Shown: positions 2,279-22,600 of the stretch, in pieces
Position numbering within the stretch: the stretch's first letter is position 1
Layout: each line of letters begins with the position of its first letter
DNA from: a virus
IMG/VR virus record: IMGVR_UViG_3300033155_001835
Location: 1 to 64,000 of that record
DNA: 64,000 nt
Direction: 5' to 3' (one strand)
Notes under the pieces: model-generated
What the model saw: the letters and a program-made list of their open reading frames with translations, nothing else
What the model was told of the DNA's origin: nothing
Database searches by the model: none
Program-made: the position numbers and the translations under genes

Positions 2279-2532
2279 GATATTCTGTTTTGCTTAAGCT
2301 AACTGAGGAGATGCTGGATCTAAGTGATATCTTGCAAGGTGATGTTGAACAGTATGTGAAATACTATTTGAAAACTGGCGATCTCTCTTCTTTCCTAATT
2401 CGTTATAGTCAGAACCTTGAGGATTTGATTTACACAATCCGCGTAGACTCTAATCTTCCTTATCCCGGTTTGTTTCCTTGTGCTGAAGCTCAAATACCAC
2501 CTCAGAAAGCAGCAACGTGGGAACATAACTAA
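2275..2532 (+). CDS. Small hypothetical protein ending in a KAATW motif
   Basis: An 85-residue protein. I prefer the ATG at 2275, which overlaps the upstream stop as ATGA, over the ATG at 2266. The first 60 residues are Leu- and acid-rich and predicted helical. The C-terminal end reads QKAATWEHN, similar to GKAATWKGK in the gene at 4635 and to GKSATWQSK in the zinc ribbon of the phage portal (14970-17351). Its stop overlaps the next start as TAATG. It lacks the Q-x-E-F-x-F-V peptide. Function unknown. Confidence 0.55.
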   Translation: MRYSVLLKLTEEMLDLSDILQGDVEQYVKYYLKTGDLSSFLIRYSQNLEDLIYTIRVDSNLPYPGLFPCAEAQIPPQKAATWEHN

Positions 2533-2828
2533 TGCAACGTGAATTTGACTTCATATGGAAGGAACTACCTTGGAAGCCTTGGGGCAGAAGCTACAACAAG
2601 TTTGGTGGTGTAAGTATTAAAGGTGTCTTCTCTAAACCTTCAGTTGTTCCTGTCTTTACCAAGAAGGTCTGGGACGCAGTTGGTAATATCATCCCCATTG
2701 TAGAAGTCTTCTCTATGCCTACTGATGACAAGGGTGATCTTGGAGAAATGGTGTCCTACAAGAAGGATATTTACGTGAAACTAGAAGGTGGTTGGCATAT
2801 TGCTCAGGGAGAGTCTGATGCAACTTGA
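2532..2828 (+). CDS. Tagged mini-protein with tail-tube-like and head-protein-like segments
   Basis: A 98-residue protein opening with MQREFDFIWKELPW, the first copy of the shared terminal peptide. Residues 19-36 (RSYNKFGGVSIKGVFSKP) match RSYNSFSGVDIKGVFANK at residues 9-26 of the tail tube (27658). Residues about 45-58 (KVWDAVGNIIPIVE) match KVWDHVGNIIPDIE at residues 14-27 of the head protein at 19144. One small gene thus joins pieces resembling two different virion proteins behind the tag. The start overlaps the previous stop (TAATG), and its own last codons are read in another frame as the start of the next tag. Function unknown; decoy, assembly-modulating or clamp-binding roles are inference. 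Confidence 0.7.
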   Translation: MQREFDFIWKELPWKPWGRSYNKFGGVSIKGVFSKPSVVPVFTKKVWDAVGNIIPIVEVFSMPTDDKGDLGEMVSYKKDIYVKLEGGWHIAQGESDAT

Positions 2829-3111
2829 ATTTAGCTTTGTTAGAGATGAGAAACCCTATAGAACTCGTGTATATGGCCGTCGCTGCGCGGCTCCTCTTTA
2901 CGATATGACTGCTGATAATGAAGGATCTCTACCAAAGGTACACTCTATGAAGAAGGACATTTGTTCTGTTTGTGGTCACGAAGGCACAGACGGTCCTTGC
3001 AAACATCTCTATCCTTCTGTGCCTTCGTTTGCTCAACTAAAGAAGTGGATGCTAGAAACAATTCCTCAATTCCTGACACCTGATGGCAAACTGCAGGATG
3101 GTAATATCTAA
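2818..3111 (+). CDS. Tagged mini-protein with a protease-like zinc knuckle
   Basis: A 97-residue protein. The start chosen is the ATG at 2818, which begins the tag MQLEFSFVRDEKPY and has GGGAGAG upstream; an open frame extends further to 2788 without support. The middle (KDICSVCGHEGTDGPCKH) matches KAICSVCKQNWAAEGKCEH in the prohead protease (residues about 190-208 of the gene at 17359), including the spacing type of the cysteines and the His; a zinc knuckle is likely. The first 11 bases (ATGCAACTTGA) also encode the last codons and stop of the previous gene, so translation is probably coupled. Confidence 0.7.
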   Translation: MQLEFSFVRDEKPYRTRVYGRRCAAPLYDMTADNEGSLPKVHSMKKDICSVCGHEGTDGPCKHLYPSVPSFAQLKKWMLETIPQFLTPDGKLQDGNI

Positions 3112-3353
3112 TGCAGACTGAGTTTTCTTTCGTGTTAGACGAGTCTGAGTGGTCTTGTCATCTTCATTCATTTGAATGTCATCCATACGCAATGTTCAAG
3201 ATTGGTGACATTGTGCAGATCAGTTGTAACAATACGTTGCTTGGTCCTCATGATGCAGGTGACTATCGTTGGGCTGGCCGCGTTGTTTCTATTCAACATA
3301 ACTTTCCTGGACCCTCTACAGCAATAGTTGATACGAGATTTAGATGCAATTAG
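3111..3353 (+). CDS. Tagged mini-protein, beta-rich
   Basis: An 80-residue protein starting with the tag MQTEFSFVLDESEW. The rest (FKIGDIVQISCNN, AGRVVSIQHNF, STAIVDTRF) alternates hydrophobic and polar residues as in a small beta barrel of the SH3 or OB kind; this is a guess from pattern. Unlike some neighbours I see no segment matching a virion protein in this window. The start overlaps the upstream stop (TAATG), and the next tag begins within its last ten bases. Confidence 0.65.
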   Translation: MQTEFSFVLDESEWSCHLHSFECHPYAMFKIGDIVQISCNNTLLGPHDAGDYRWAGRVVSIQHNFPGPSTAIVDTRFRCN

Positions 3354-3544
3354 AACTAGGTTTTATAAGACAAGACTTACCTTGGGCTCTTAACGGACGC
3401 ATTGCAGAACTGCAACGTGCAGGCTATACGCAGGCTTTTGTTGACAGATGGCTAGATGAATATTTTGAGTACCACCAAAGAATGATTTTTTCTGCCCTTG
3501 GCTTCAGTGAAAAAGATATCCCTTTGGCAAAGAGGAAAGTCTGA
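3344..3544 (+). CDS. Tagged mini-protein, helical
   Basis: A 66-residue protein with the tag MQLELGFIRQDLPW, the copy most like the sliding-clamp hexapeptide of DNA polymerase IV (QLVLGL). The remainder is predicted helical (GRIAELQRAGYTQAFVDRWL, then an aromatic-rich helix). The ATG at 3344 lies in ATGCAATTAG, whose TAG is the previous gene's stop. It ends one base before the next gene. No virion-protein match seen. Confidence 0.65.
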   Translation: MQLELGFIRQDLPWALNGRIAELQRAGYTQAFVDRWLDEYFEYHQRMIFSALGFSEKDIPLAKRKV

Positions 3545-3545
3545 G

Positions 3546-3821
3546 ATGCAAATGGAATTTTCTTTTGTAAAGAAGTTAGAGCTACCACAACAAGTCGACC
3601 CGCCCTATCTTCCTTCTTCTATCCTTCAAGGAACTCCTACTATATGTACCTTCTCCACTAGTCTTATCTTTGAGGATACAATTGAAATAGGCAGTCCTGT
3701 AGCTCTGGACGAACAAGGTCGTGCTTACCAGGCAACATCTCACCAAATTCAAGATGTGATTGGTGTGGCAGCAGGTAAACCATGCCCTGGTATGATCAAT
3801 GTGGTGATGAATGCAGACTGA
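3546..3821 (+). CDS. Tagged mini-protein with a possible head-decoration-like segment
   Basis: A 91-residue protein; the ATG at 3546 opens the tag MQMEFSFVKKLELP and follows GAGGAAAG; the frame is open from 3498 but that part overlaps the previous gene. Residues about 53-88 (IEIGSPVALDEQGRAYQATS, then QDVIGVAAG) loosely match the C-terminal part of the head protein at 19144 (VPGDFLKVGADSNLVVAA, then CDIVGQVLA), the layout seen in capsid decoration or DUF2190-like proteins. This match is weaker than those in the genes at 2532 and 4279. The next tag begins 11 bases before its end. Confidence 0.65.
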   Translation: MQMEFSFVKKLELPQQVDPPYLPSSILQGTPTICTFSTSLIFEDTIEIGSPVALDEQGRAYQATSHQIQDVIGVAAGKPCPGMINVVMNAD

Positions 3822-4005
3822 ATTTAACTTTGTACAACTAGAAAAACCTTACACGCCTAAAATACGCCTGTGGAAACATATGGACAAAATCCCTGAATAC
3901 GATGTAATAGGTATGTACAATGAAATGGCAGAAGACATGAAGAATTTTCATGGGATCGATATTAAAGCATACAAGCAGGAGTACTTGGGAGAATTCATCA
4001 AATGA
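3811..4005 (+). CDS. Tagged mini-protein
   Basis: A 64-residue protein starting with the tag MQTEFNFVQLEKPY. The rest is polar with a helix (YDVIGMYNEMAEDMKNF) and a basic/acidic tail. The first 11 bases (ATGCAGACTGA) contain the previous gene's stop in another frame, the same arrangement as at 2818. Its own stop overlaps the next start as ATGA. No match to a virion protein of this window. Function unknown. Confidence 0.65.
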   Translation: MQTEFNFVQLEKPYTPKIRLWKHMDKIPEYDVIGMYNEMAEDMKNFHGIDIKAYKQEYLGEFIK

Positions 4006-4292
4006 CAGACAAGCCACGAGCGCCCGCTACCCTTCTTATTCATTCTCTCATGGACACCCTTTGGGATCTTCAAGACAGAATGACCCACACAGGAGACTCC
4101 AAAGAAGGAATGAATGTACTAGAGGCACACGACTATTTCAGTCGAGAAAGTGACCAGGGGAGAGAATGCTCTTATGCTCTTAAAGCAAGATCCCTTTTTG
4201 CCAAACAAGACTACACAGAAATTAAAAAGCTATTTCTGGCTGCCCTTGACGCTTATCGCGCTTGTGAAGGAGACGACTTTGGCACTCCTTAA
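4002..4292 (+). CDS. Small helical protein without the tag
   Basis: A 96-residue, mostly helical protein (LIHSLMDTLWDLQDRMTHTG; ALKARSLFAKQDYTEIKKLF). It sits inside the tagged series and is coupled to its neighbours by ATGA upstream and a 14-base overlap downstream, but carries no Q-x-E-F-x-F-V peptide at either end. No family recognised; the helix pattern would fit a helical bundle or adaptor. Confidence 0.6.
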   Translation: MTDKPRAPATLLIHSLMDTLWDLQDRMTHTGDSKEGMNVLEAHDYFSRESDQGRECSYALKARSLFAKQDYTEIKKLFLAALDAYRACEGDDFGTP

Positions 4293-4638
4293 ACCACCAG
4301 GTGAAAACCTAACTAAAGAAAACCCAGCATGGGTCACAGAGTACTATGCCACTAAAAACCAAGTCGGCGATGCTATAGACTGGCCTTCATTCAAACAGAT
4401 GAAAGAAGACCAGCAACAGCAAATGCAGAACTGGAAAACAAAACTAAGCTCAGTCAAGATGGATGACATATTCGACGCTTTCTCTAATATAATGAACGCA
4501 CCTCTAGCTTCTCCCACCATGGTAATGCACCCTGATACCTGGCAACTCATCTTGAAACACGAAGCATATATACGTATTCTAGAACTATCTACACAACTAG
4601 AGTTTCCTTTTGTAGAGGATGAACTAAAAAGGCCGTGA
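4279..4638 (+). CDS. Mini-protein with capsid-like segment and C-terminal tag
   Basis: A 119-residue protein. I chose the TTG at 4279, which has AAGGAG six bases upstream (4267-4272); the frame is open from 4150 but that part overlaps the previous gene fully. Residues about 59-87 (VKMDDIFDAFSNI, then PTMVMHPDTW) match VTMDDVFDAFAQV and NTLLMHPLTW in the major capsid protein (residues about 193-225 of the gene at 20572), with the same spacing. Here the tag lies at the C terminus: TQLEFPFVEDELKRP. The capsid match is one of the clearest links between this cassette and the virion genes. Role unknown. Confidence 0.65.
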   Translation: MALLKPPGENLTKENPAWVTEYYATKNQVGDAIDWPSFKQMKEDQQQQMQNWKTKLSSVKMDDIFDAFSNIMNAPLASPTMVMHPDTWQLILKHEAYIRILELSTQLEFPFVEDELKRP

Positions 4639-4826
4639 TCGGTATCACTCTTTGTGATTTTGACTCTGTCCCTGGGGGCAAGGCAGCAACCTGGAAAGGT
4701 AAAGACCCCAAGGTATGCTATACTGTTGATGATTTGTATAATTTTTTGTACGATGAGTTTGCTGGCGCAGGTCAACTAGAGTTCAAGTTTGTAATATATG
4801 AGGAGTGCCCATGGCTGATGATGTAA
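4635..4826 (+). CDS. Mini-protein with C-terminal tag
   Basis: A 63-residue protein starting at GTG 4635, which overlaps the previous stop (GTGA); only a weak AAGG precedes it. It contains GGKAATWKGK, like the GKSATWQSK segment in the portal zinc ribbon and QKAATWEHN in the gene at 2275, then an acidic helix (TVDDLYNFLYDEF). The tag is at the C terminus: GQLEFKFVIYEECPW. The final codons overlap the start of the next gene at 4811. It is the last member of the cassette. Confidence 0.55.
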   Translation: MIGITLCDFDSVPGGKAATWKGKDPKVCYTVDDLYNFLYDEFAGAGQLEFKFVIYEECPWLMM

Positions 4827-5695
4827 ACATCTCTGAAAATAATAATCCCAAAACTGCTCTAGTAAAGCTTTCTGGGCAGATCATCAAGACAGACGGCTCT
4901 TCCTACGATTCCAACTTCTTTAAGTGTCTAGACCTACATCCTGATGACTATTCTGACATTTCCTACACTCCCAAAGAAGCAGCTAGTATTAGGTCACATC
5001 TCTTGCATCTTTCTACCGGAGCTTCTGCTGCTATTCCTCTGATCTGCGGAGGTACTGCCCATTGTCCATTTGCAGAGAGATGCCCATTTGTTCGGACGGA
5101 CAATATTCGCCGAGCAGCAGATCCGAAAGCAAAGCTTTGTACTCCGATTGGACGCCAGTGTCAGGTAGAAGTTAATCTACTGAGTCAGTGGACCAGAATG
5201 TTCATACACGAATACGAGATCGATGAAAAGAGCTTTTCTCAATTCACCATGGTCAGATTGCTTGCAGAGTGTGAGTTGATGTTGTGGAGGCTGAATAACA
5301 ACCTGGCAAAGCCTGAGAACGCAGAGTTGGTTGTAGATCAGGTAATAGGTGTGGACAAGGAAGGGAATGTCCTGACTCGCCAAGAGGTCTCAGCCTTCGT
5401 AGAGGCCAAAGAGAAGTATGAGAACAAGAAACTCAAATTGATCAAATTAATGGTTGGAGATCCACAGGAACAGTACAAGCGTGCCGCCGCCCTGCGTCAA
5501 CGTGGGAAAGAGGATCCGTCTACCAATGCAGCGCAACTCCGCGCATCTCTTGATAGATTACAGAGAGAGGCTAAGGCCTTGGATTTAATGGTGAAAGAGG
5601 TAGAGGGAAACGTAATTGACGCGGAGGCTCTCCCAATAGAGGCAGAAGAAGTAAAGGATGATACCCTGTCCCCAGAGGACCTGCTCAAGGAGTAG
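4811..5695 (+). CDS. Cys-cluster protein before the packaging genes
   Basis: A 294-residue protein. The ATG at 4811 is preceded by GAGGAG with five bases spacing; a GTG at 4805 lies inside that ribosome site and is rejected. Five cysteines fall in two groups, C79/C85/C91 (CGGTAHCPFAERCPF) and C110/C117 (CTPIGRQC), which could hold zinc or an iron-sulfur cluster. Residues about 185-270 are charged and predicted coiled coil (KEKYENKKLKLIKLM, LDRLQREAKALDLMVKEV), and the C terminus is acidic. Size, coiled coil and place upstream of the terminase large subunit would suit a small terminase-like or other DNA-packaging partner, but there is no recognisable DNA-binding motif. The call stays open. Confidence 0.6.
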   Translation: MADDVNISENNNPKTALVKLSGQIIKTDGSSYDSNFFKCLDLHPDDYSDISYTPKEAASIRSHLLHLSTGASAAIPLICGGTAHCPFAERCPFVRTDNIRRAADPKAKLCTPIGRQCQVEVNLLSQWTRMFIHEYEIDEKSFSQFTMVRLLAECELMLWRLNNNLAKPENAELVVDQVIGVDKEGNVLTRQEVSAFVEAKEKYENKKLKLIKLMVGDPQEQYKRAAALRQRGKEDPSTNAAQLRASLDRLQREAKALDLMVKEVEGNVIDAEALPIEAEEVKDDTLSPEDLLKE

Positions 5696-5705
5696 TGGTA
5701 TCAGT

Positions 5706-8700
5706 TTGGCTAACGCATTCATCCAACAGCTATATGCAGAAGGTATAGTTTCAGGAGAGTTATCAGCTCCTGAGTCTATTCGTGCGCGTGCAGCACATGT
5801 TGCGAAGCAGTCTGGATTCACCTTCGTTACAGAAGGGAAACCTCTTTTTCGAAAAGGGGAGAGATGGAAAGTAGGGTCTGTTAAATATAAGACTCATACT
5901 CGCTTCTATGCTCAGACACAAGCCATCAGAGAGAACTGGGAAGCCAGAGCTTCTTCTGTTTTTGGGAGACCTCTATCTACAGAACGTCTAGAGAACCTTA
6001 CAGCAGTGATACAAGCCCACGAGGGCGCAGAAGCTTTCTATCTTGGCAAGACAGGACACCAGCGCTTTGGTAGTCATGCATCAGAGTCAGTCATCCAGAG
6101 TGAGCTAGAAGTAGCACGCAGGATGGGTCCACAGACAGCAGCAGATACTGTTAGATACAGAAGGTGGGAAAGTGAACAGCTAGTTGGTATGGCAACACAT
6201 CAGACTCCATACTGGAACACATATAGACAAAGAATGGGATCTATTCTGGACGAGTTCGAAAGCCAAGGTGCTGTAGTAGGTTCAGGTTGGCAAAAGAGAG
6301 GAGGTCGAAGGTACCGTTCTGTTGCTGAACAGTTTAAGCTTGACCCAAATAAAAATGTAACACTTTTCCATGGTACTAACGAACTGTCTGCACAGAGAAT
6401 TGCAAAGGGTGTGTTTGAACAAGGTGCAGATAGAAACTATGTTGAGTATCATCGTTTGGCTAAAGCTCAAGCAATTGAATCTTGGGCTGCTCCCCGTGGC
6501 CCTGTTGCCGGTGGGCTTATAGGTGACAGGCCACTATCTGCACTAGAGCAAAAACAGTTTCATACTCCAGCATTACTTGTCACCGAAATACCTTCTAAGT
6601 ATGTAGGAATACAGTCTGGCACCGGACAGTTTGATGAAAATATTGTATGGTCAGAGGGCTTGAAACAAGCAAAGCATAGAGTGGTTACTGGAGAAGAAGC
6701 CTTGCAGAGAATCTCTGAACAGAACTTAACTGTTCAGGAATACTTTGAGGAAGAGAGTTTCAAAAAGCAGGCGGCTGCGAAGTCTTCGGCTATGGCCCGT
6801 ACTGAAACTGCAATGGCCAAGGCAGGCAAAGCTACTGCATTAAACCCTGACGAGGCCTGGGCAGCCTTTCTTGACGAGAAGACTCCGGGTACTCCACGAG
6901 GCCTACCTCCTCCTGTAGAAGCTACTAGAGGCTTCAAACGTATATCTCGTTGGAAGATAGGACTAGGTGTAGGAGCAGCGGCCCTAGCGGGGTACGGAAT
7001 TACTAAACTACTCCCAGATGAGAACAGAGGTTACTACTCCTTTGATGGTTTCCAGCATGCTGGTACTGCACCAGGCATCCGTAGAGATATGACTCCATTT
7101 GGTTCCAAATATGACAGAGTGCGTAAGCTTGCAGGTATGATGGAAGAGACCTTTGAGATGATGACATCACGTAAGGGTTTCAAGCAGGCCTTACAGAGTG
7201 CAAAGCTAGTCAAGACATTTGAAGAGGGTTCCTTTGCTACAGCAGGTCTATATAGAGCTTCCTACAAGGGTAAGTCTTTTAGGTTTGTCAAGAAGGAGAT
7301 CTCTCAGGAAGCAAAAGAAGAGCTGATGCGGAATGCAGCTAATCCAGAGAAGTATGCACGTGGTCTTGATCTGGAGCATGAAGCTAAGTTCCTTCGTGAG
7401 TTAGGAGAAACACCAGCGGCTCCTTCTCTTTATGGTCACTTCGATGATGCATTATATATGGAGTACATGCCAGGAGAGAGAATGGGTGACTGGGCAGTCA
7501 ATAACCCAGCTGCTGTTATGACTAGACAAGCCAAAGAAGATATAGAAGAGACAATCTACCAGGCAGCAAAGAAGGGTTTTACAAACCTAGATATCCATGG
7601 CGGTAATATTCTATTTGATCCAAAGACAGGCAGAGGTTCTTGGATTGACTGGGGCCTAGCTACACGAGAAGCGTCAGGTGTTGTAGGTCAGTCTTCTGAA
7701 ATGAGTGGTAAGTTTCTTGGTACCACTGGTGTCGCTGTACCGCTCCTTGAGCAGAAGGCTCATATGATGCAGGGCTCTATAAGAAAGGTATCCAGCTCTT
7801 TTGCTTCTGTACCAGCTGGTCCCCGCGCAAAGCTTTTAGCAGAACAGAACGCTTCAGAAGGTATGAAGCATGGTGGAATGGCTCAAAGAAAGCGTTCCTC
7901 TATTACAGAGTTTGGTTCTAAATGGAAAGGTATGTTTGGTAGACTTTTTGGTGGCAAGTCAAAGGCAGCTTGGAAAGGAGGAGCCCGTCAGCTTCCAGAA
8001 AGATTGCAAGTGGTAGCTAGAGATTGGCAGGGTGTTACTGCACGTCCAGAACGATTACAACAGTTTCTACATGCAGATATTGAGGCAAGTGGTCTCAGTA
8101 ATGCACTCCAAAAAAATCTTAAGAAAGAAGCAAGTCAGTTTCTAAAGGGAGCTAAAGCACAAGAACACTATGTCATTGCCAACCCAAGAGCGATCAAAGA
8201 AGGCGCGGCAGAAGAAGGTGTTTCTTACCTAGCTCGATATAAGGGTGTTATGCGCCATGAACGTTTTCACCAATCTATTGCTAAACATAAAGTTAGAGAC
8301 TCTTTGAGACTTCTAAATGATTCTTCTTTTATCCCTGAGCATTTCCATAAATTTGCAGGCAAGAATGCTGCTGAAGAGTATTTTGCATATGCTATGGAAC
8401 AACCTTTAGTTCGTCGTCAGTCAGGATACAAACACGCTATGGCTCTCTTCAAGGGTAATGATGCTGCCTATACTCGTATTGAAGCGTTACACGGAAAAAA
8501 TGTAGCATCGCAGTTGCGTAAGGTTTTAACAGATTTTGGTTCTGGCTATAGAGGATTGCAAGCTTCTTTTAGCAAGACAGTTGCTCAAGCTGCTAGACCA
8601 AGAGCAGGCATCAAATTGACCAATTCAGCTAAGGACCTTAAACTAGCACAAGAAAACATATGGGAATGGGCAAGAGGCGGCGGTCAACGTCACACTCGTC

Positions 8701-8750
8701 CAACAGGCAGTCACGTACAACAACTATCTAACTTTGGAGGTATTCTATAA
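5706..8750 (+). CDS. Polyvalent virion-associated protein: ART-like, kinase-like and zinc-protease-like domains
   Basis: A 1014-residue protein. I favour TTG 5706 (LANAFIQQLY): other genes here start TTGGCTAAC, AAGGAG stands 13 bases upstream, and the in-frame ATG at 5658 only adds overlap with the previous gene. Visible in order: LFHGT at 220-224, typical of the first ADP-ribosyltransferase motif; a hydrophobic segment 416-436; a protein-kinase-like core with a Gly-containing loop (about 505-511), K529/K530, catalytic-loop-like LDIHGGNILFD (H631, N634) and metal-site-like IDWG (D648); then HERFH (851-855), an HExxH zinc-protease signature, with EEYFAYA about 35 residues later as a candidate third ligand. 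Such multi-enzyme 'polyvalent proteins' are known in phages and conjugative elements and are thought to be injected with DNA to block host defences. Its place beside head genes agrees. Activity is not proven. Confidence 0.7.
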   Translation: MANAFIQQLYAEGIVSGELSAPESIRARAAHVAKQSGFTFVTEGKPLFRKGERWKVGSVKYKTHTRFYAQTQAIRENWEARASSVFGRPLSTERLENLTAVIQAHEGAEAFYLGKTGHQRFGSHASESVIQSELEVARRMGPQTAADTVRYRRWESEQLVGMATHQTPYWNTYRQRMGSILDEFESQGAVVGSGWQKRGGRRYRSVAEQFKLDPNKNVTLFHGTNELSAQRIAKGVFEQGADRNYVEYHRLAKAQAIESWAAPRGPVAGGLIGDRPLSALEQKQFHTPALLVTEIPSKYVGIQSGTGQFDENIVWSEGLKQAKHRVVTGEEALQRISEQNLTVQEYFEEESFKKQAAAKSSAMARTETAMAKAGKATALNPDEAWAAFLDEKTPGTPRGLPPPVEATRGFKRISRWKIGLGVGAAALAGYGITKLLPDENRGYYSFDGFQHAGTAPGIRRDMTPFGSKYDRVRKLAGMMEETFEMMTSRKGFKQALQSAKLVKTFEEGSFATAGLYRASYKGKSFRFVKKEISQEAKEELMRNAANPEKYARGLDLEHEAKFLRELGETPAAPSLYGHFDDALYMEYMPGERMGDWAVNNPAAVMTRQAKEDIEETIYQAAKKGFTNLDIHGGNILFDPKTGRGSWIDWGLATREASGVVGQSSEMSGKFLGTTGVAVPLLEQKAHMMQGSIRKVSSSFASVPAGPRAKLLAEQNASEGMKHGGMAQRKRSSITEFGSKWKGMFGRLFGGKSKAAWKGGARQLPERLQVVARDWQGVTARPERLQQFLHADIEASGLSNALQKNLKKEASQFLKGAKAQEHYVIANPRAIKEGAAEEGVSYLARYKGVMRHERFHQSIAKHKVRDSLRLLNDSSFIPEHFHKFAGKNAAEEYFAYAMEQPLVRRQSGYKHAMALFKGNDAAYTRIEALHGKNVASQLRKVLTDFGSGYRGLQASFSKTVAQAARPRAGIKLTNSAKDLKLAQENIWEWARGGGQRHTRPTGSHVQQLSNFGGIL

Positions 8751-14973: not shown

Positions 14974-17351
14974 AAATCTTTGGCTTCGATATCAACTGGA
15001 ACAAAGCACCAGCAGATCAGGTAATCGTTCGCACGGTTGCACCTGCAACAATTCCTGTCTCTAAAATCCCTACTGTTAAAATTGGTTCTCTTTCTTATGC
15101 ACAACAGTTTGCGCAAGGACGCGGCCATTTTCAGTCTGCAGAGTATGACTTATCCGAAATTGGTAAGATAGAAGATACTGATGGCTTTGTCCGTCAGGCT
15201 TTCAAAAAGAAAGAAGGCTTGATGTTCAAAGAGGGCGTTGGATGTAAGGGAGCTAACAAACGTACAGTCCGTTATTACAAGACTCGTATGGCTCAAATAG
15301 CTCAGGCATCTAGTGTTCCCACAAGTATTCTATTGAAGCGAGTGGCGCGTAGTCTTATTCGTACCTCAAACGCCTTTCTTGTTAAGGTTCGTGACCCAAA
15401 CAAGTCTGGTGGTAGTATGCGTACTACTGCTGATGGTAAGCGTTTAAAGCCAATTGCTGCCTACTTCCCAGCTGCACCAGAAACAATGCGTGTAGATTTG
15501 GACGCAAATACAGGCAAAATACGTAAATGGCGACAAGTTCTTCCAGATGGACGTTGGAAAGACTATCAACCAGAGAATGTTGTTCATTTCGCAATCGACA
15601 AGCGAGAGGGCTTTTTCTTTGGAGTTCCTTCTATTATTCCTGTTATTGATGATATTCGTGCCCTTCGCCAGATCGAAGAAAATATTGAACTACTTTTATA
15701 TCAACATCTCTTTCCTCTTTTCCATTACAAGGTAGGTACTGAAACAGCTCCTGCTGGATATACCGAGGAAGGAGTAAGGGAAGTTGACGCAATAGAGACT
15801 CAGATTAGCATCATGCCTTCTGAGGGCGCTATCGTTACTCCAGAGCGTCATGAGATTAAAGCTATTGGCTCTGAGGGTAGAGCTGTTAGAGCTGAAGGTT
15901 ATCTAACCCACTTCAAGAAACGTGTCTTTGCAGGTCTAGGCGTCTCTTCTGTAGACATGGGCGATGGTGATACAACCAACAGAGCTACTGCTCAAACCCT
16001 TTCTCGTGCAATCATTGATGCTGTTAAGGCTATCCAAGATGATCTTGAAGCACAATGGAACCAGCATGTCATTTCCGAACTACTTCTTGAAGGCGACTTT
16101 GGTGCTCGTGTTCTTGAAGAAGAGGATATGGTCTTCTTACAGTTCACTGAAATTGATATTCAGAACAAGATGGAGATTGAGAAGCATGCTATGGAGCTAT
16201 GGAAGGCCAGCTTGTTGACATTTGATGAAGCCAGAGGCGCAATGTCTCATGAGCCTATTCCTCTTCCAGAACATGGTGAAGAGCAGGATCCAAAGAAGTA
16301 CCCTGAATGGTTCTCTATTTACTTCAAGCTTATCGAAGAGCCTCTTAACCTTATTCGTGCCGTCGATGAACCTTTCAGTATGGCTGCAAGAGCTATGGCT
16401 GAAGCACGTGGTGCGGCTATGACCGAGAAGGGCAGACAAGAGCAGATTGCAGGTAAGAAAGAAGAGGTTAAAGCTCAAGCAGAAGAGGATAGGAAGACCA
16501 AGATCGCTGTTGTTAAAGCAAAGCCAGCCTCGCCTCCTTCTACTAAGAAGAAAGATCACTACCTCTCTACTGCTTTCAAGGACCTTGAGTCTGATACTGT
16601 TGATCGTATCCAAACTAGCATCACCTCCAGAGGAGTTGTTGATGCTGAATACCTTCTATCACTAGCTCGTATATGGGCTGCGGATACTGTAGAGAAACTA
16701 CATTCTCTAGCTGTGGGTCAGTTAATCCTTGGTTTTAATGATCAAACTAACATGCAAGCATCGAACGCTGAAGTCTTACTTTCTGTAGGTCGTCAGATCA
16801 TTTTGGACCGTATTGACTACCGTATCAACAAACTGGTTGTTAATACTGTGAACCTTGTCTCCCGCCGAGTTGACGAGAACCTTGGTGATGTTAAACTGGC
16901 GGAAGCATTGCCGGATGTAGCCCGCGAATTGCATATTGCATTTGATGCAGTTAGATATCGTACGGACTTCATCTGGGATGTAGAGATTCGCAAGGCCTAC
17001 GCTTTCGGTCGTGTCCTTGGTATGAGACATCTAGGCGAGTATGGTTTTGAATATCATGCCCATTCAGATAGTTGTGAACGTTGTGCTGCAATAGATGGCC
17101 GAGTAATGCCTGCCATGGCTGCGGGGATCGACGACGTACCTCCTCTTCATCCAAACAGTCGGATGAAGTTTAAGATCGTTAGAGAAGACCCAAGCATTGT
17201 AGATGTAACTGACGCAACAAAAGAAGGTATTGAACAGATCATGGTACCGTGTCCTGAGTGTGGCAAGTCAGCAACCTGGCAATCGAAAGCAGCAAATTAC
17301 TATTGTGCGGCATGTTCACATTCATTTGTTGAAAAGGATATCAAGGAGTAA
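14970..17351 (+). CDS. Portal protein fused to MuF-like domain and zinc ribbon
   Basis: A 793-residue protein. The first 500 residues look like a phage portal, the dodecameric DNA gate of the capsid: for example VVHFAIDKREGFFFGVPSII followed by a long helix (DIRALRQIEENIELLLYQHL). After a charged linker (about 500-535) comes a helical region and then a MuF (SPP1 gp7-like) signature, HSDSCERCAAIDG (about 698-710) and PPLHPNSRMKF (about 724-734). The last 35 residues form a zinc ribbon, CPEC...CAAC (about 760-782). Portal-MuF fusions are known, but the added ribbon is unusual. Part of the ribbon (GKSATWQSK) resembles short segments of the mini-proteins at 2275 and 4635. Confidence 0.9.
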   Translation: MKIFGFDINWNKAPADQVIVRTVAPATIPVSKIPTVKIGSLSYAQQFAQGRGHFQSAEYDLSEIGKIEDTDGFVRQAFKKKEGLMFKEGVGCKGANKRTVRYYKTRMAQIAQASSVPTSILLKRVARSLIRTSNAFLVKVRDPNKSGGSMRTTADGKRLKPIAAYFPAAPETMRVDLDANTGKIRKWRQVLPDGRWKDYQPENVVHFAIDKREGFFFGVPSIIPVIDDIRALRQIEENIELLLYQHLFPLFHYKVGTETAPAGYTEEGVREVDAIETQISIMPSEGAIVTPERHEIKAIGSEGRAVRAEGYLTHFKKRVFAGLGVSSVDMGDGDTTNRATAQTLSRAIIDAVKAIQDDLEAQWNQHVISELLLEGDFGARVLEEEDMVFLQFTEIDIQNKMEIEKHAMELWKASLLTFDEARGAMSHEPIPLPEHGEEQDPKKYPEWFSIYFKLIEEPLNLIRAVDEPFSMAARAMAEARGAAMTEKGRQEQIAGKKEEVKAQAEEDRKTKIAVVKAKPASPPSTKKKDHYLSTAFKDLESDTVDRIQTSITSRGVVDAEYLLSLARIWAADTVEKLHSLAVGQLILGFNDQTNMQASNAEVLLSVGRQIILDRIDYRINKLVVNTVNLVSRRVDENLGDVKLAEALPDVARELHIAFDAVRYRTDFIWDVEIRKAYAFGRVLGMRHLGEYGFEYHAHSDSCERCAAIDGRVMPAMAAGIDDVPPLHPNSRMKFKIVREDPSIVDVTDATKEGIEQIMVPCPECGKSATWQSKAANYYCAACSHSFVEKDIKE

Positions 17352-17358
17352 TCGCTGT

Positions 17359-19116
17359 ATGGATAATTTTGTTAGATTTAGAGATGCCTTAAATGTGAAG
17401 CCTCTTGAGATTAGTCAAGATGTGAAAGATTTTTATGCAGGTCTAGGCACTAGCCAAGCTGCTGTTCAGCCTCTGCGTGTACGTATTGCAGCAACTCATG
17501 CTGGCAAGATTACTCGTAACAACGGTTTTTATCTACCACACAAAATGGCCGCAGGCGTTTCTTCTTTTACGGACCAATATGCAAAACCAATTCAGATTCA
17601 TCACCAGGATGATTTAGACCCAATTGGACGTGCAGTTGGAGCAGCATATGTAGACATGAGTAGAGGGTTCCGTGATTCGGTACAAGACTCATACTCTAAC
17701 TCTTCATTTAAACAATTGCAGGACTTTGTAGATGGGCGTCTTTCTTACAAGGATGCATGCGCCTTCGCCACTAAGTTCTTCATCAATGATATGGTTGTAA
17801 ACTCAGACCCTGATTATGAAGGTCTTGGCTATATCGAACTAGTTGCTGACATTACAGATCCACTAGCTATCCAAAAGATTATAGATGGACGATACCTCAC
17901 TGGTTCTACAGGCGCTACTACTAACAAGGCAATTTGCTCTGTTTGTAAACAAAATTGGGCTGCCGAAGGAAAATGTGAGCACCGACCTGGCAAGGTGTAC
18001 GATTCCGCTAAGTGCGTACTAATTGCTGGAGATTTGACGTATGACGAGTACTCTTTTGTTAACAAACCAGCCGATAGACACTCTCGTGTTATCGAGGTCA
18101 ATGTTAACGGAATTCAAGATTTTGTTACAATGGATGAGCAGGCAGAGTGTAGCATCCCAGAAATCACTCTGGTTGTTGATCGACATCAACACAAACAATC
18201 CGAGGAGGATCAAAACATGTTATTTAAGGATGCCATGGAGCTTGTCCGTAAGAGTGAGAAGTTTGACGAAGTGAAGGACCTAGAAGATAAGGTCAAGAAG
18301 TTTGTTGACGAACACAAAGACCTTGATGAAGCTAAGCTTTTCGAGCTGCTTACACCACAGGATGATAAGCAAGAAGAAAAGAAAGAGGTTAAGGACGACG
18401 TGAAGCAGGAAGACAAGAAGGAAGAAGTTAAGGATGACACTCCTGCGGTCCTCACTGCTGACCTTGTACAGAAGCTTATTGCTGATGCACTTGTTGCTAA
18501 GGAAAAGGCTGATGAAGAGTCAAAGAAGGCTGCTGAAGAGCAGAAGACTGTTGTCGAAGACGCGGTTAAGAAGGCTACTGTTGAGCTGACTGTCGAAAGA
18601 GATAAGCTCCAGAAGAATCTTGACGTGGCTCGTAAGGAGATCCGCTATCTCCATTCAGACATTGAGAATTTGACTAATAGTATGGCTGACAGTGTAGAAG
18701 AAGTACGCAACGCACGAGTTAAGCATATTGTCGATCTCAAGGTTTTGGCTGATGAGAAGGCTGACGTAGAAGCTCTGACTGTTGAGTTGAAGGATAAAAC
18801 TAACGATGACCTACAGGGAATGCTAGTAGATCTAGGTAGTAAAGTTGACACTCAGAAAATCGCGGATACACTTAACTCTGGATTATCAAATAACCCATCT
18901 GGCACCGTTGATGACCCAACGCTGAAGCAAGATGCTTCTATCGGAACTGAGACTAAAGAGACTGGAGAAATTGTAGTTACTGATGAACTTGCTGCGCAAG
19001 TTAGATTCCAGTGGCTCCAGATTAATAAGGCTCAGGGTAAGAAAGCAGCGGACGCATTCATCGATGATTGTAAGACACAAAAGATTCTACCTGCTGAGTG
19101 GCCAGAAAAGAAATAA
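17359..19116 (+). CDS. Prohead protease fused to scaffold
   Basis: A 585-residue protein. The start is ATG 17359 behind AAGGAG; the frame is open from 17230 but only inside the portal gene. Residues about 30-250 look like a head maturation protease: RIAATHAGKITRNNGFYLPH, then QIHHQDDLDPIGRAVGAAYVD with candidate catalytic His, then a knuckle AICSVCKQNWAAEGKCEH (about 191-208) and a conserved-looking DEYSFVNKPADRHS. From about residue 287 a Lys/Glu-rich coiled coil and tail follow, typical of a scaffold. The protease is expected to cleave scaffold and capsid protein after assembly. A strong internal start (18217) probably makes the scaffold separately. The knuckle resembles the mini-protein at 2818. 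Confidence 0.85.
   Translation: MDNFVRFRDALNVKPLEISQDVKDFYAGLGTSQAAVQPLRVRIAATHAGKITRNNGFYLPHKMAAGVSSFTDQYAKPIQIHHQDDLDPIGRAVGAAYVDMSRGFRDSVQDSYSNSSFKQLQDFVDGRLSYKDACAFATKFFINDMVVNSDPDYEGLGYIELVADITDPLAIQKIIDGRYLTGSTGATTNKAICSVCKQNWAAEGKCEHRPGKVYDSAKCVLIAGDLTYDEYSFVNKPADRHSRVIEVNVNGIQDFVTMDEQAECSIPEITLVVDRHQHKQSEEDQNMLFKDAMELVRKSEKFDEVKDLEDKVKKFVDEHKDLDEAKLFELLTPQDDKQEEKKEVKDDVKQEDKKEEVKDDTPAVLTADLVQKLIADALVAKEKADEESKKAAEEQKTVVEDAVKKATVELTVERDKLQKNLDVARKEIRYLHSDIENLTNSMADSVEEVRNARVKHIVDLKVLADEKADVEALTVELKDKTNDDLQGMLVDLGSKVDTQKIADTLNSGLSNNPSGTVDDPTLKQDASIGTETKETGEIVVTDELAAQVRFQWLQINKAQGKKAADAFIDDCKTQKILPAEWPEKK
18203..18219 (+). promoter_or_regulatory. Internal ribosome site for the scaffold
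   Basis: AGGAGG (18203-18208) stands eight bases before an in-frame ATG at 18217, one of the better Shine-Dalgarno sequences of the window although it lies inside the protease gene. It falls exactly at the border between the protease part and the coiled-coil scaffold part, as expected for nested expression. Confidence 0.7.
18217..19116 (+). CDS. Scaffold protein from internal start (nested, in frame)
   Basis: A 299-residue product nested in frame in the protease/scaffold gene. It begins MLFKDAMELVRKSEKFDEV and is dominated by charged helices: an acidic/Lys-rich linker at about 45-75, then a long coiled coil (about 85-170), then a Gly/Ser linker and a compact C-terminal helix region (VRFQWLQINKAQGKKAADAF). 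Lambda C/Nu3 is the classical case in which scaffold is made from an internal start of the protease gene. Here the evidence is the AGGAGG and the domain border; expression is not proven. Confidence 0.65.
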   Translation: MLFKDAMELVRKSEKFDEVKDLEDKVKKFVDEHKDLDEAKLFELLTPQDDKQEEKKEVKDDVKQEDKKEEVKDDTPAVLTADLVQKLIADALVAKEKADEESKKAAEEQKTVVEDAVKKATVELTVERDKLQKNLDVARKEIRYLHSDIENLTNSMADSVEEVRNARVKHIVDLKVLADEKADVEALTVELKDKTNDDLQGMLVDLGSKVDTQKIADTLNSGLSNNPSGTVDDPTLKQDASIGTETKETGEIVVTDELAAQVRFQWLQINKAQGKKAADAFIDDCKTQKILPAEWPEKK

Positions 19117-19143: not shown

Positions 19144-20544
19144 ATGGCTTTCGACGAACTAAATAGGTATTCCCCAACCCATAAGGTTTGGGATCACGTA
19201 GGAAATATCATCCCGGATATCGAGCACTCCGAGGGTGAAAGACCAGCTCATGAATTCCACCCCGCAGCATGGCTGCCAGTACAGTTCTATGATAAGCATT
19301 ATGAGAACTGGATGGTTGTTATGCCAGGTAAGTGCCTTGCCCTAGACCCTGATGGCAATCTAATGTCAGGTGAATATGGTTTGACCGGCGCATCTGTAGT
19401 TTATTCTGCTAGTGATGTTGGTGCAGGTACTATCGATGTTGCAACTGGTTTGCCAGTTACGACTGCTAAGACTGTTGTTCTTTCAAACCTTTCAGGTACT
19501 CTTGCTGGTACCGCAGCTACCGCAGGTACTGGTGGCGTAACTTCTGGTTTTATGGGTCGCGCAGGAGTAGATTTCGTTGACGGTACACAGAAGTACTTTG
19601 TTGGCGTAGCTCCATATGCATACCTACAGTGGGCTGGTGGAGACGGTTTCAACCCATCTCAGTATCAGCAACACAACTACAACATGCAGCACCAGGTTGC
19701 AGTTCTTTGCGACTATGTCATCAAGCTTCCTTTGATTCCAGCTCAGGCTGCATCAGAGGGTGTCGAAGTGGCTGTTGCAGTGCTTAACCTAGTCTTTGGT
19801 ACAGCTGATACGCATACCAGAGTTCAGGCTCAAGCTAATGCAGAGGGTCGTTACAACCCAACTACTGGTACTGTTCCAGTTTCTCTAACTGCTCCAGTTA
19901 TTGCTCTTGCACTAGATAATGAGAACGTTGCTAAGAACACTGCACGTACTACCATTACTTTGCAAAGCACTAGTGCTTCTGATGATTTGTCTAGCATTTT
20001 GGTTACAGAGAAGGGTTCTGTTTCTGCGGTAACGCAGGCTGGCGACTTCTTCGTTGACTACCTTGTTGGTGTTATCTTCATCTACAGTGCAGATGGCGCA
20101 ACCATTCCACCTGTCATCACTGGCGCTGGTGGTACAGTTAGTATCACTTATTATCACACCAATGCTGCTCCTGCTGTTGTGAGCACCTTTGCTTCTGTTC
20201 TTGCTGAGGGTATTGTTCCTGGCGACTTCCTAAAAGTCGGCGCTGACTCTAACCTCGTTGTAGCAGCACCAGCCACCGATAACATCTGTGATATCGTTGG
20301 TCAGGTTCTAGCATTGGACAACAACTTCCCTAAGGACAGTCTTGAGCGTGTTAGGACTGCTTATAGTCCTGCAATCGGTACGAACCCTGCTGGTTCCATG
20401 GCTAATGCAGTTGCAGGTGGCCCAGCTACTAACCTCGGACAGATGGACCAGATGCCTGGTTCCGCAACGGGTGGATACCCAGACTTGCTTCACTATGCCG
20501 GTGGCGCTGATACGCTAGTCATCGTCAACTTGATTAGTCGATAA
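19144..20544 (+). CDS. Head protein next to the major capsid protein
   Basis: A 466-residue protein with AAGGAGG upstream of ATG 19144. It is beta-rich and Gly/Ala/Thr-rich, without enzyme motifs. The N terminus has KVWDHVGNIIPDIE (residues 14-27) and LPVQFYDKHYENWMVVMPGK; the C-terminal third has GDFLKVGADSNLVVAA and DIVGQVLALD, a pattern of capsid decoration or head-fibre proteins. Its place between protease/scaffold and capsid protein suggests a minor capsid, vertex or decoration protein. Residues 14-27 recur almost unchanged in the mini-protein at 2532. Confidence 0.7.
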   Translation: MAFDELNRYSPTHKVWDHVGNIIPDIEHSEGERPAHEFHPAAWLPVQFYDKHYENWMVVMPGKCLALDPDGNLMSGEYGLTGASVVYSASDVGAGTIDVATGLPVTTAKTVVLSNLSGTLAGTAATAGTGGVTSGFMGRAGVDFVDGTQKYFVGVAPYAYLQWAGGDGFNPSQYQQHNYNMQHQVAVLCDYVIKLPLIPAQAASEGVEVAVAVLNLVFGTADTHTRVQAQANAEGRYNPTTGTVPVSLTAPVIALALDNENVAKNTARTTITLQSTSASDDLSSILVTEKGSVSAVTQAGDFFVDYLVGVIFIYSADGATIPPVITGAGGTVSITYYHTNAAPAVVSTFASVLAEGIVPGDFLKVGADSNLVVAAPATDNICDIVGQVLALDNNFPKDSLERVRTAYSPAIGTNPAGSMANAVAGGPATNLGQMDQMPGSATGGYPDLLHYAGGADTLVIVNLISR

Positions 20545-21922: not shown

Positions 21923-22600
21923 ATGCAGATCAAACTTAGTATGTTTGGACCACCAATGTGGTTTCTTGGTGATCCCAAGAACCTTACTGTCAACTTAAAC
22001 TATATGAATCCTGGACCAGTTGAACTAAACTTCGGTTCTCTTTCTACAGATGAACAACAGAAGGTTTTACAGAGTGTGCAGAATGGGCAACTGGAATGTG
22101 ATATTACATATGCTCAACTCTATCAAGAATGGGCAACTAGTGGTCCTGCAATAGAGGTTCCTCAAGATCCACAAGTCGAAGCTATTCGTCAGCGAATAAG
22201 CGGCATGAGAGAACAACTAGAAACTGAGAGAAAAGTTAGAGAGAATAAAGACCAAGAGAAGTGTAGCTATTTGCTTAGCGGTAGTGTTCGTGCAATGAAG
22301 GCTGCTATTACTGGCATGAAAGACATCAAACTAGTACATAGGTTACTTGTTGAAGAGAAGGTGGGCAAGAAGAGAAAAGGAGTTGTTACAGCTCTAGAAA
22401 AGAAACAACATCAATTAGCACTTGCTGTACAAGCACGAGTAGCAAAAAAGATTAACTCAGCCACGAAGCTGCAGAACAAGACACGTATCCCTGGAGAGAC
22501 AATCAAATTCAATGTGGTAGAATCAGAGCAGGAATCTGTGGTTCTTACTCCAAGTGATTTAATTGCCGCAGCTACCGAGGAATCTGCAGGTGGTGAATGA
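21923..22600 (+). CDS. Hypothetical neck-region protein with coiled coil
   Basis: A 225-residue protein with AGGAG before ATG 21923. The N-terminal 60 residues look compact and beta-rich (MQIKLSMFGPPMWFLGD; LTVNLNYMNPGPVELNFG). From about 85 a charged coiled coil follows (IRQRISGMREQLETERKVRE), then Lys-rich helices and an acidic end. The N-terminal QIKLSM faintly recalls the tag of the 2532-4826 cassette but lacks its E-F-x-F core, so I do not count it. Position between capsid and connector genes only allows a general head/neck assignment. Confidence 0.6.
   Translation: MQIKLSMFGPPMWFLGDPKNLTVNLNYMNPGPVELNFGSLSTDEQQKVLQSVQNGQLECDITYAQLYQEWATSGPAIEVPQDPQVEAIRQRISGMREQLETERKVRENKDQEKCSYLLSGSVRAMKAAITGMKDIKLVHRLLVEEKVGKKRKGVVTALEKKQHQLALAVQARVAKKINSATKLQNKTRIPGETIKFNVVESEQESVVLTPSDLIAAATEESAGGE

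Follow-up and report, generated by a model that had tools for sequence, protein, structure and literature searches.

The window analysed here (positions 1-64000 of a 66.6-kb IMG/VR virus record, IMGVR_UViG_3300033155_001835) carries, at 2532-4826, eight small genes (63-119 aa) that lie in an overlapping string ahead of the phage head genes. The proteins that they encode, which we call minis and name by their start positions, have a short terminal peptide in common, Q-x-E-F-x-F-[VI], referred to below as the tag. Two of them, m2532 and m4279, contain segments that resemble virion proteins: the tail tube and a second head protein for m2532, and the major capsid protein for m4279. We tentatively propose that these genes form a lineage-specific late cassette, in which the tag would be a docking peptide for a head or virion partner and some of the bodies would be virion mimics; we regard this reading as possible, well short of probable.

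The mini-gene array and its common tag

The array belongs to a run of twelve consecutive same-strand genes, from gene 1961 to gene 4811, in which neighbours overlap by 1-16 nt at ten of the eleven junctions and are separated by 1 nt at the other. Its members and their two conserved companions are the following.

2532-2828, + strand: m2532, 98 aa; N-terminal tag MQREFDFI; tail-tube-like GRSYNKFGGVSIKGVFS; head-protein-like TKKVWDAVGNIIPIVEV; C-terminal KGDLGEMV..YVKLEGGW
2818-3111, + strand: m2818, 97 aa; N-terminal tag MQLEFSFV; CSVC..C.H stretch, with protease likeness at chance level
3111-3353, + strand: m3111, 80 aa; N-terminal tag MQTEFSFV; no significant body match
3344-3544, + strand: m3344, 66 aa; N-terminal tag MQLELGFI; weak portal-like stretch, not significant
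3546-3821, + strand: m3546, 91 aa; N-terminal tag MQMEFSFV; no significant body match
3811-4005, + strand: m3811, 64 aa; N-terminal tag MQTEFNFV; weak tube-like and capsid-like stretches (p=0.04)
4002-4292, + strand: c4002, untagged 96-aa gene, conserved beside g4811 across the phage family
4279-4638 (open reading frame 4150-4638), + strand: m4279, 119 aa, TTG start behind AAGGAG; 40-aa capsid-like segment; C-terminal tag QLEFPFV
4635-4826, + strand: m4635, 63 aa; C-terminal tag QLEFKFV; no significant body match
4811-5695, + strand: g4811, conserved 294-aa gene after the array, found in about 40 relatives; CPFAERCPF motif; 16-nt overlap with the last mini

The reading frames of all eight minis are intact. 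The gene string continues into g4811, the terminase and other head genes, from which we infer that the minis are probably expressed late, together with the head genes. The untagged c4002 and g4811 form a conserved pair ahead of the terminase in many relatives, and neither has a Pfam match above the cut-off. No fitting family was found for the minis in Pfam or PHROGs, and none of them matches a PADLOC model of defence-related proteins. Searches of IMG/VR for relatives of m2532, and of phage records for m2818, returned none.

The tag is common to all eight minis, at the N-terminus in six and at the C-terminus in two. Its Q, its E at the third position, its second F and its final V or I are present in every copy, and its first F in seven. 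Scored with a position matrix built from these eight tags, the minis reach 23-32 bits and the next-best protein of the window only 8.3, so that the tag is no motif in ordinary use in this genome; none occurs in the 2.6 kb of the record beyond the window. A derivation from the N-terminus of the structural gene at 21923 (MQIKLSMFGPPMWF) is likewise ruled out, as it obtains negative scores with the tag matrix. The codons of the tag differ synonymously among the minis, and it is therefore the peptide that is conserved, not the DNA. At 2818, 3344 and 3811, where the overlaps are 10-11 nt, the Q-x-E codons of the tag hold the stop of the upstream gene out of frame, which ties the tag to translational coupling. 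In IMG/VR the strict tag pattern retrieved no tagged array elsewhere; the relaxed pattern gave 54 matches, none in an array, and the top scorers that we inspected are out-of-frame reads of a conserved gene.

Virion-like segments in two minis

Three virion proteins of the window hold the counterparts of the segments.

19144-20544, + strand: second head protein; N-terminal motif HKVWDHVGNIIPDIE, counterpart of an m2532 segment
20572-21834, + strand: major capsid protein; residues 191-228, counterpart of the m4279 segment
27658-28338, + strand: tail tube protein, by homology to the 'tail tube protein' of Bacillus phage KLEB27-3; N-terminal motif RSYNSFSGVDIKGVF, counterpart of an m2532 segment

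An earlier note on this DNA had described fragments of the phage's own virion proteins in three of the minis, and the peptides that it quoted are all present at the genes it named. The minis were compared with 38 other large proteins of the window by pairwise blastp, for which the best value among 800 shuffled minis was E=0.002. The protein m2532 matches the tail tube at E=2.7e-5 (19 aa, 68%) and the head protein 19144 at E=5e-4 (16 aa, 75%), and does combine segments of two virion proteins as the note had claimed. The match of m4279 to the capsid (E=5e-7) is just as real, but it is a single continuous alignment of 36 residues and not the two separate motifs that had been described. With virion family profiles made from relatives (best of 720 shuffles, 5.1e-5), the E-values are 6.4e-12 for the capsid, 5.8e-6 for the head protein and 7.6e-4 for the tube, and hhalign gives 2.1e-7 for the capsid, 2.8e-5 for the tube and 2.2e-5 for the head segment. 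Against 977 unrelated phage protein segments, the two minis obtain p-values of 0.001 and 0.002, with a floor at about 0.001; the only null segment that scores better than the minis is a terminase-like ATPase segment, which is probably a true homologue. It should be noted that a control protein from phage L083 reached a profile E of 2.7e-6 via a long match, so that a lone profile value near 1e-6 is not decisive. At the level of sequence, it is the agreement of the methods, together with the two independent segments in m2532, that is decisive for virion likeness.

The other minis are much less clear. The proposed match of m2818 to the prohead protease is at chance level (profile E=0.0033, p=0.083), and this claim is therefore unsupported. 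The tube and capsid likeness of m3811 (p=0.04) is individually weak, the portal likeness of m3344 (p=0.097) is not significant, and m3546 (p=0.19) and m3111 (p=0.49) are individually weak or at chance level; two minis of relatives, r3229 and r2206, give p=0.057 and p=0.089. When the two strong minis are excluded, Fisher's combined p is 0.019 for ten minis and 0.037 for the six of the window genome, compared with 0.09 for 25 controls, so that the remaining minis are jointly marginal. Three of the four matches and two of the three genes put forward in the note thus stand. Residues 66-90 of m2532 (KGDLGEMVSYKKDIYVKLEGGW) also match protein 52149 weakly (profile E=0.025); by eye, we take this stretch to resemble the GDL..YV.GG.W repeats of phage tail fibres.

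Family alignments indicate that the two pieces of m2532 coincide with the most conserved N-terminal motifs of their families, YNSFSGVDIKAVF for the tail tube and HKxWDHVGNIIPxxEHSEG for the second head protein. Near-invariant residues are nevertheless changed in m2532, with N-S-F-S-G-V-D becoming N-K-F-G-G-V-S and WDH becoming WDA, and in m4279 the HPL of the family becomes HPD. The segments share 71%, 67% and 53% nucleotide identity with the phage's own genes, and the codon is the same at about half of the residues that are identical, which is not clearly above chance; there is therefore no sign of recent copying from these genes. Nor are the segments recognizably derived from the phage's 'own' proteins: the capsid piece of m4279 is closer to the capsids of several relatives (18/36 and 17/36 identical residues) than to its own (16/36), and for both pieces of m2532 the phage's own protein and those of relatives tie. 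As only two of the eight minis are statistically solid and their segments do not look recently copied, the earlier note's suggestion that such genes undergo 'active assembly' is not borne out.

Bacteria are known to sense phage structural proteins, and the minis might occupy, without activating them, host sensors that recognize tail tube or capsid (of the DSR2 or CapRel kind), an explanation that we consider fairly unlikely. Two of the significantly matched proteins, tail tube and capsid, are indeed known sensor targets, and the segments are altered at near-invariant residues. The small phage protein DSAD1 resembles the tail tube and thereby traps and blocks DSR2 (PMC10973363). The contacts of DSR2 on the tube are F13, F23, A27, A30, S31 and F32, close to the N-terminus (PMC11087589). 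The counterpart of the m2532 segment is at residues 7-25 in the tube of this phage, against contacts at 13-32, each range being in the numbering of the respective tube. On the other hand, the second head protein is not among the known triggers, and segments of 16-40 aa are far smaller than the known contact surfaces. The junction of the array with late genes and the lack of PADLOC matches among the minis also speak against sensor decoys, and a decoy needs no shared tag.

The phage, its relatives and the distribution of the array

The capsid, sheath and terminase proteins of the window share about 29-37% identity with those of Moorella phage MTATph1, Acinetobacter phage ME3 and Bacillus phage KLEB27-3. 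Since the virion genes of ME3 carry the annotation 'homologous to Bacillus phage 0305phi8-36', the window is, judging from its virion proteins, a fragment of a 0305phi8-36-like jumbo myovirus. Its other landmarks are listed below.

10343: terminase (annotated landmark)
14970: portal (annotated landmark)
17353: prohead protease, named by correspondence with KLEB27-3, as for 19144
25757: sheath (annotated landmark)
28464: second tail tube, by homology to KLEB27-3 tail tube proteins

Protein 19144 has no match in Pfam or PHROGs and is labelled 'second head protein' as the counterpart, by place and sequence, of the KLEB27-3 'putative capsid protein'. No solved structure matching the capsid profile and no capsid relative in cellular genomes was found, and the window yielded no RNA family or tRNA. 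Within the head-gene string, at 5658-8750, a 1030-aa protein contains a kinase-like stretch (ABC1 profile, E=1.7e-4, residues 596-670, slightly under the curated cut-off) and, by eye, an 'FHGT' stretch and an H-E-x-x-H-like stretch; it is possibly a multidomain injected effector.

Two near-identical relatives from different metagenomes, G002 and G003, have an equal gene set in this region and are 53% identical to the window at gene 4811 and 69% at the sheath. At the place of the array they carry four small genes with ends in or near QCIFLFA, QLVFAFI, QLRLYLG and QIPFLFI, which follow the pattern Q..[FL].[FLY]; two of these ends share 70% identity over 20 residues (E about 1e-5). As the tag matrix misses them, it is only their place and pattern that make the tags of the two lineages probable homologues. 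The last of the four genes, r3229, encodes a capsid-like stretch IRDAFNRIVQAPARPNTLFLHP at the position of m4279 (profile E=0.0017, p=0.057), and the capsid-like segment thus probably recurs in a syntenic mini. Just upstream of a relative's mini cluster, at L010:25-285, we noticed by eye the sequence HCQAGISRS, a dual-specificity-phosphatase-like signature. Of the tagged mini-genes in other phages that the earlier note proposed to look for, this syntenic cluster is a probable case; among the about 40 relatives with gene 4811, no tagged minis were found in the others with a readable upstream region, and a 4002-type gene often directly precedes gene 4811 in them. The cassette is therefore lineage-specific.

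We also surveyed 8,883 small open reading frames from some 160 relative loci for free-standing virion fragments, leaving out split or truncated genes and short members of the same family. Only m2532 and m4279 were recovered, with a copy of m4279 on a near-identical contig. Separately, the tail tube gene of one relative appears to be split (L159:17006-18627), with its N-terminal part at 17006-17149 and its C-terminal part at 18184-18627, about 1 kb apart. The terminase matches of L046, L047, L049, L051, L052 and L083 cover roughly 540-570 residues but extend over about 2.7-2.8 kb, which would fit an interruption of these genes by an intron, an intein or an inserted gene.

The array could also be gene debris, that is, fragments of structural genes and small open reading frames joined by recombination, with the tag as a remnant of start/stop coupling and little function. 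The out-of-frame stops embedded in the QxE codons at several junctions, the otherwise orphan bodies and the restriction of the array to one lineage would fit this origin. It is made unlikely by the retention of the tag as a peptide, even at C-termini away from start codons, by the intact frames of all the minis and by the capsid-like piece probably kept in a diverged relative.

Segments that are the most conserved motifs of their families, as close to the proteins of relatives as to the phage's own, and encoded ahead of the head genes, might alternatively act on assembly, by capping or tuning that of tube and head or by interfering with that of a co-infecting relative. We hold such modulators or dominant negatives to be distinctly unlikely: the phage's own assembly would suffer too, its virion genes show no change that would give immunity, and the other relatives examined have no such minis.

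The last alternative concerns the tag itself, which could be a hexapeptide that binds the sliding clamp, the minis inhibiting or recruiting the host or phage clamp and the virion-like pieces being incidental. Protein ends of the form Q..[FL].[FLY] are similar to QL(S/D)LF-type clamp motifs, and the SocB toxin acts through clamp binding (PMC9690074); in T4, the clamp-binding motifs are C-terminal and exchangeable (PMC2988020). As in gp33, gp55 and SocB, a short terminal hydrophobic peptide is carried here by unrelated proteins. The tags nevertheless follow the QL(S/D)LF or QLxLxL consensus loosely: Q is present in all eight, but L at position 2 in only four, the E at position 3 is invariant and position 4 is F, not L, in seven. 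The virion-like segments would also be left unexplained, and we judge a clamp tag improbable.

A proposed docking-tag model and known systems

In the reading that we favour, very small genes would be translated together with the late head genes, and their products would share a strand-like docking peptide, Q-x-E-F-x-F-[VI]-x-x-E, at either end. Through this peptide the minis would all attach to a single partner, most probably part of the head or virion, and docking could lead to their co-assembly or packaging, in the manner of the T4 internal-protein leader. The bodies would then be the payload. In at least two payloads, altered versions of conserved virion motifs may occupy the binding sites of the corresponding virion proteins without doing their job, the occupied site being on an assembly partner or on a host sensor. 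A mimic role for these segments is plausible by analogy, because DSAD1 blocks DSR2 by mimicry of the tube and the contacts of DSR2 include N-terminal tube residues. That the array is joined to the head-gene string agrees with a role in assembly or packaging no less well than with an early role in counter-defence.

Several points weigh against docking and packaging. Solid virion likeness is confined to two of the eight bodies, the tag is C-terminal in two minis and does not match a known packaging signal, and its link to the G002 and G003 ends consists of pattern and synteny, with no score from the matrix. No promoter is demonstrated, sigma-70-like sites near the array being no more frequent than in shuffles, and the AlphaFold models are of low confidence (mean pLDDT about 50), too weak to use. 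The observation of the earlier note is thus partly confirmed and its interpretation partly supported, mimicry being a live hypothesis. A broader version, in which the phage encodes a library of decoys that intercept host sensors or the assembly partners of its virion proteins, each built from spliced structural motifs with altered key residues and bearing the shared docking tag, seems unlikely. If true, viral mimicry would take a new form here, that of altered virion fragments with a tag in common; alternatively, the array would represent a new way of loading proteins into the virion.

The internal proteins Ip1-3 of T4, which go to the capsid and are injected, have only their N-terminal leader in common, which packages them, and they block GmrSD nucleases (PMC12373910). 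Like the minis, they have small, unrelated bodies, one short terminal peptide and accessory loci that vary between close relatives. Cleavage of the T4 leader takes place at the prohead protease motif L/I-x-E, and this motif is not constant at a fixed place in the tags, although the consensus is that of T4 and may not be that of this phage. No homology of the minis to known internal protein families was found in Pfam or PHROGs, and there is no sequence match between tag and leader. In contrast to Ip1-Ip3, the tag stands at either terminus (C-terminal in two of the eight minis and in all those of G003), two bodies contain virion-protein segments, and the packaging of the minis is putative.

Encapsulin targeting peptides, which are C-terminal in most cargo proteins and N-terminal in some, address cargo to HK97-fold shells (PMC8346489). 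The likeness lies in a short peptide, at either terminus, that brings cargo to a shell of this fold; the sequences are not similar, and the shell would here be a phage capsid instead of an encapsulin. Finally, DSAD1 is a small phage protein that mimics a virion protein, the tail tube, as m2532 may do; in the minis, tube, head and capsid segments are found. DSAD1 is however a structural mimic without a tag, whereas the array presents short sequence copies of several virion proteins in a set of tagged genes.

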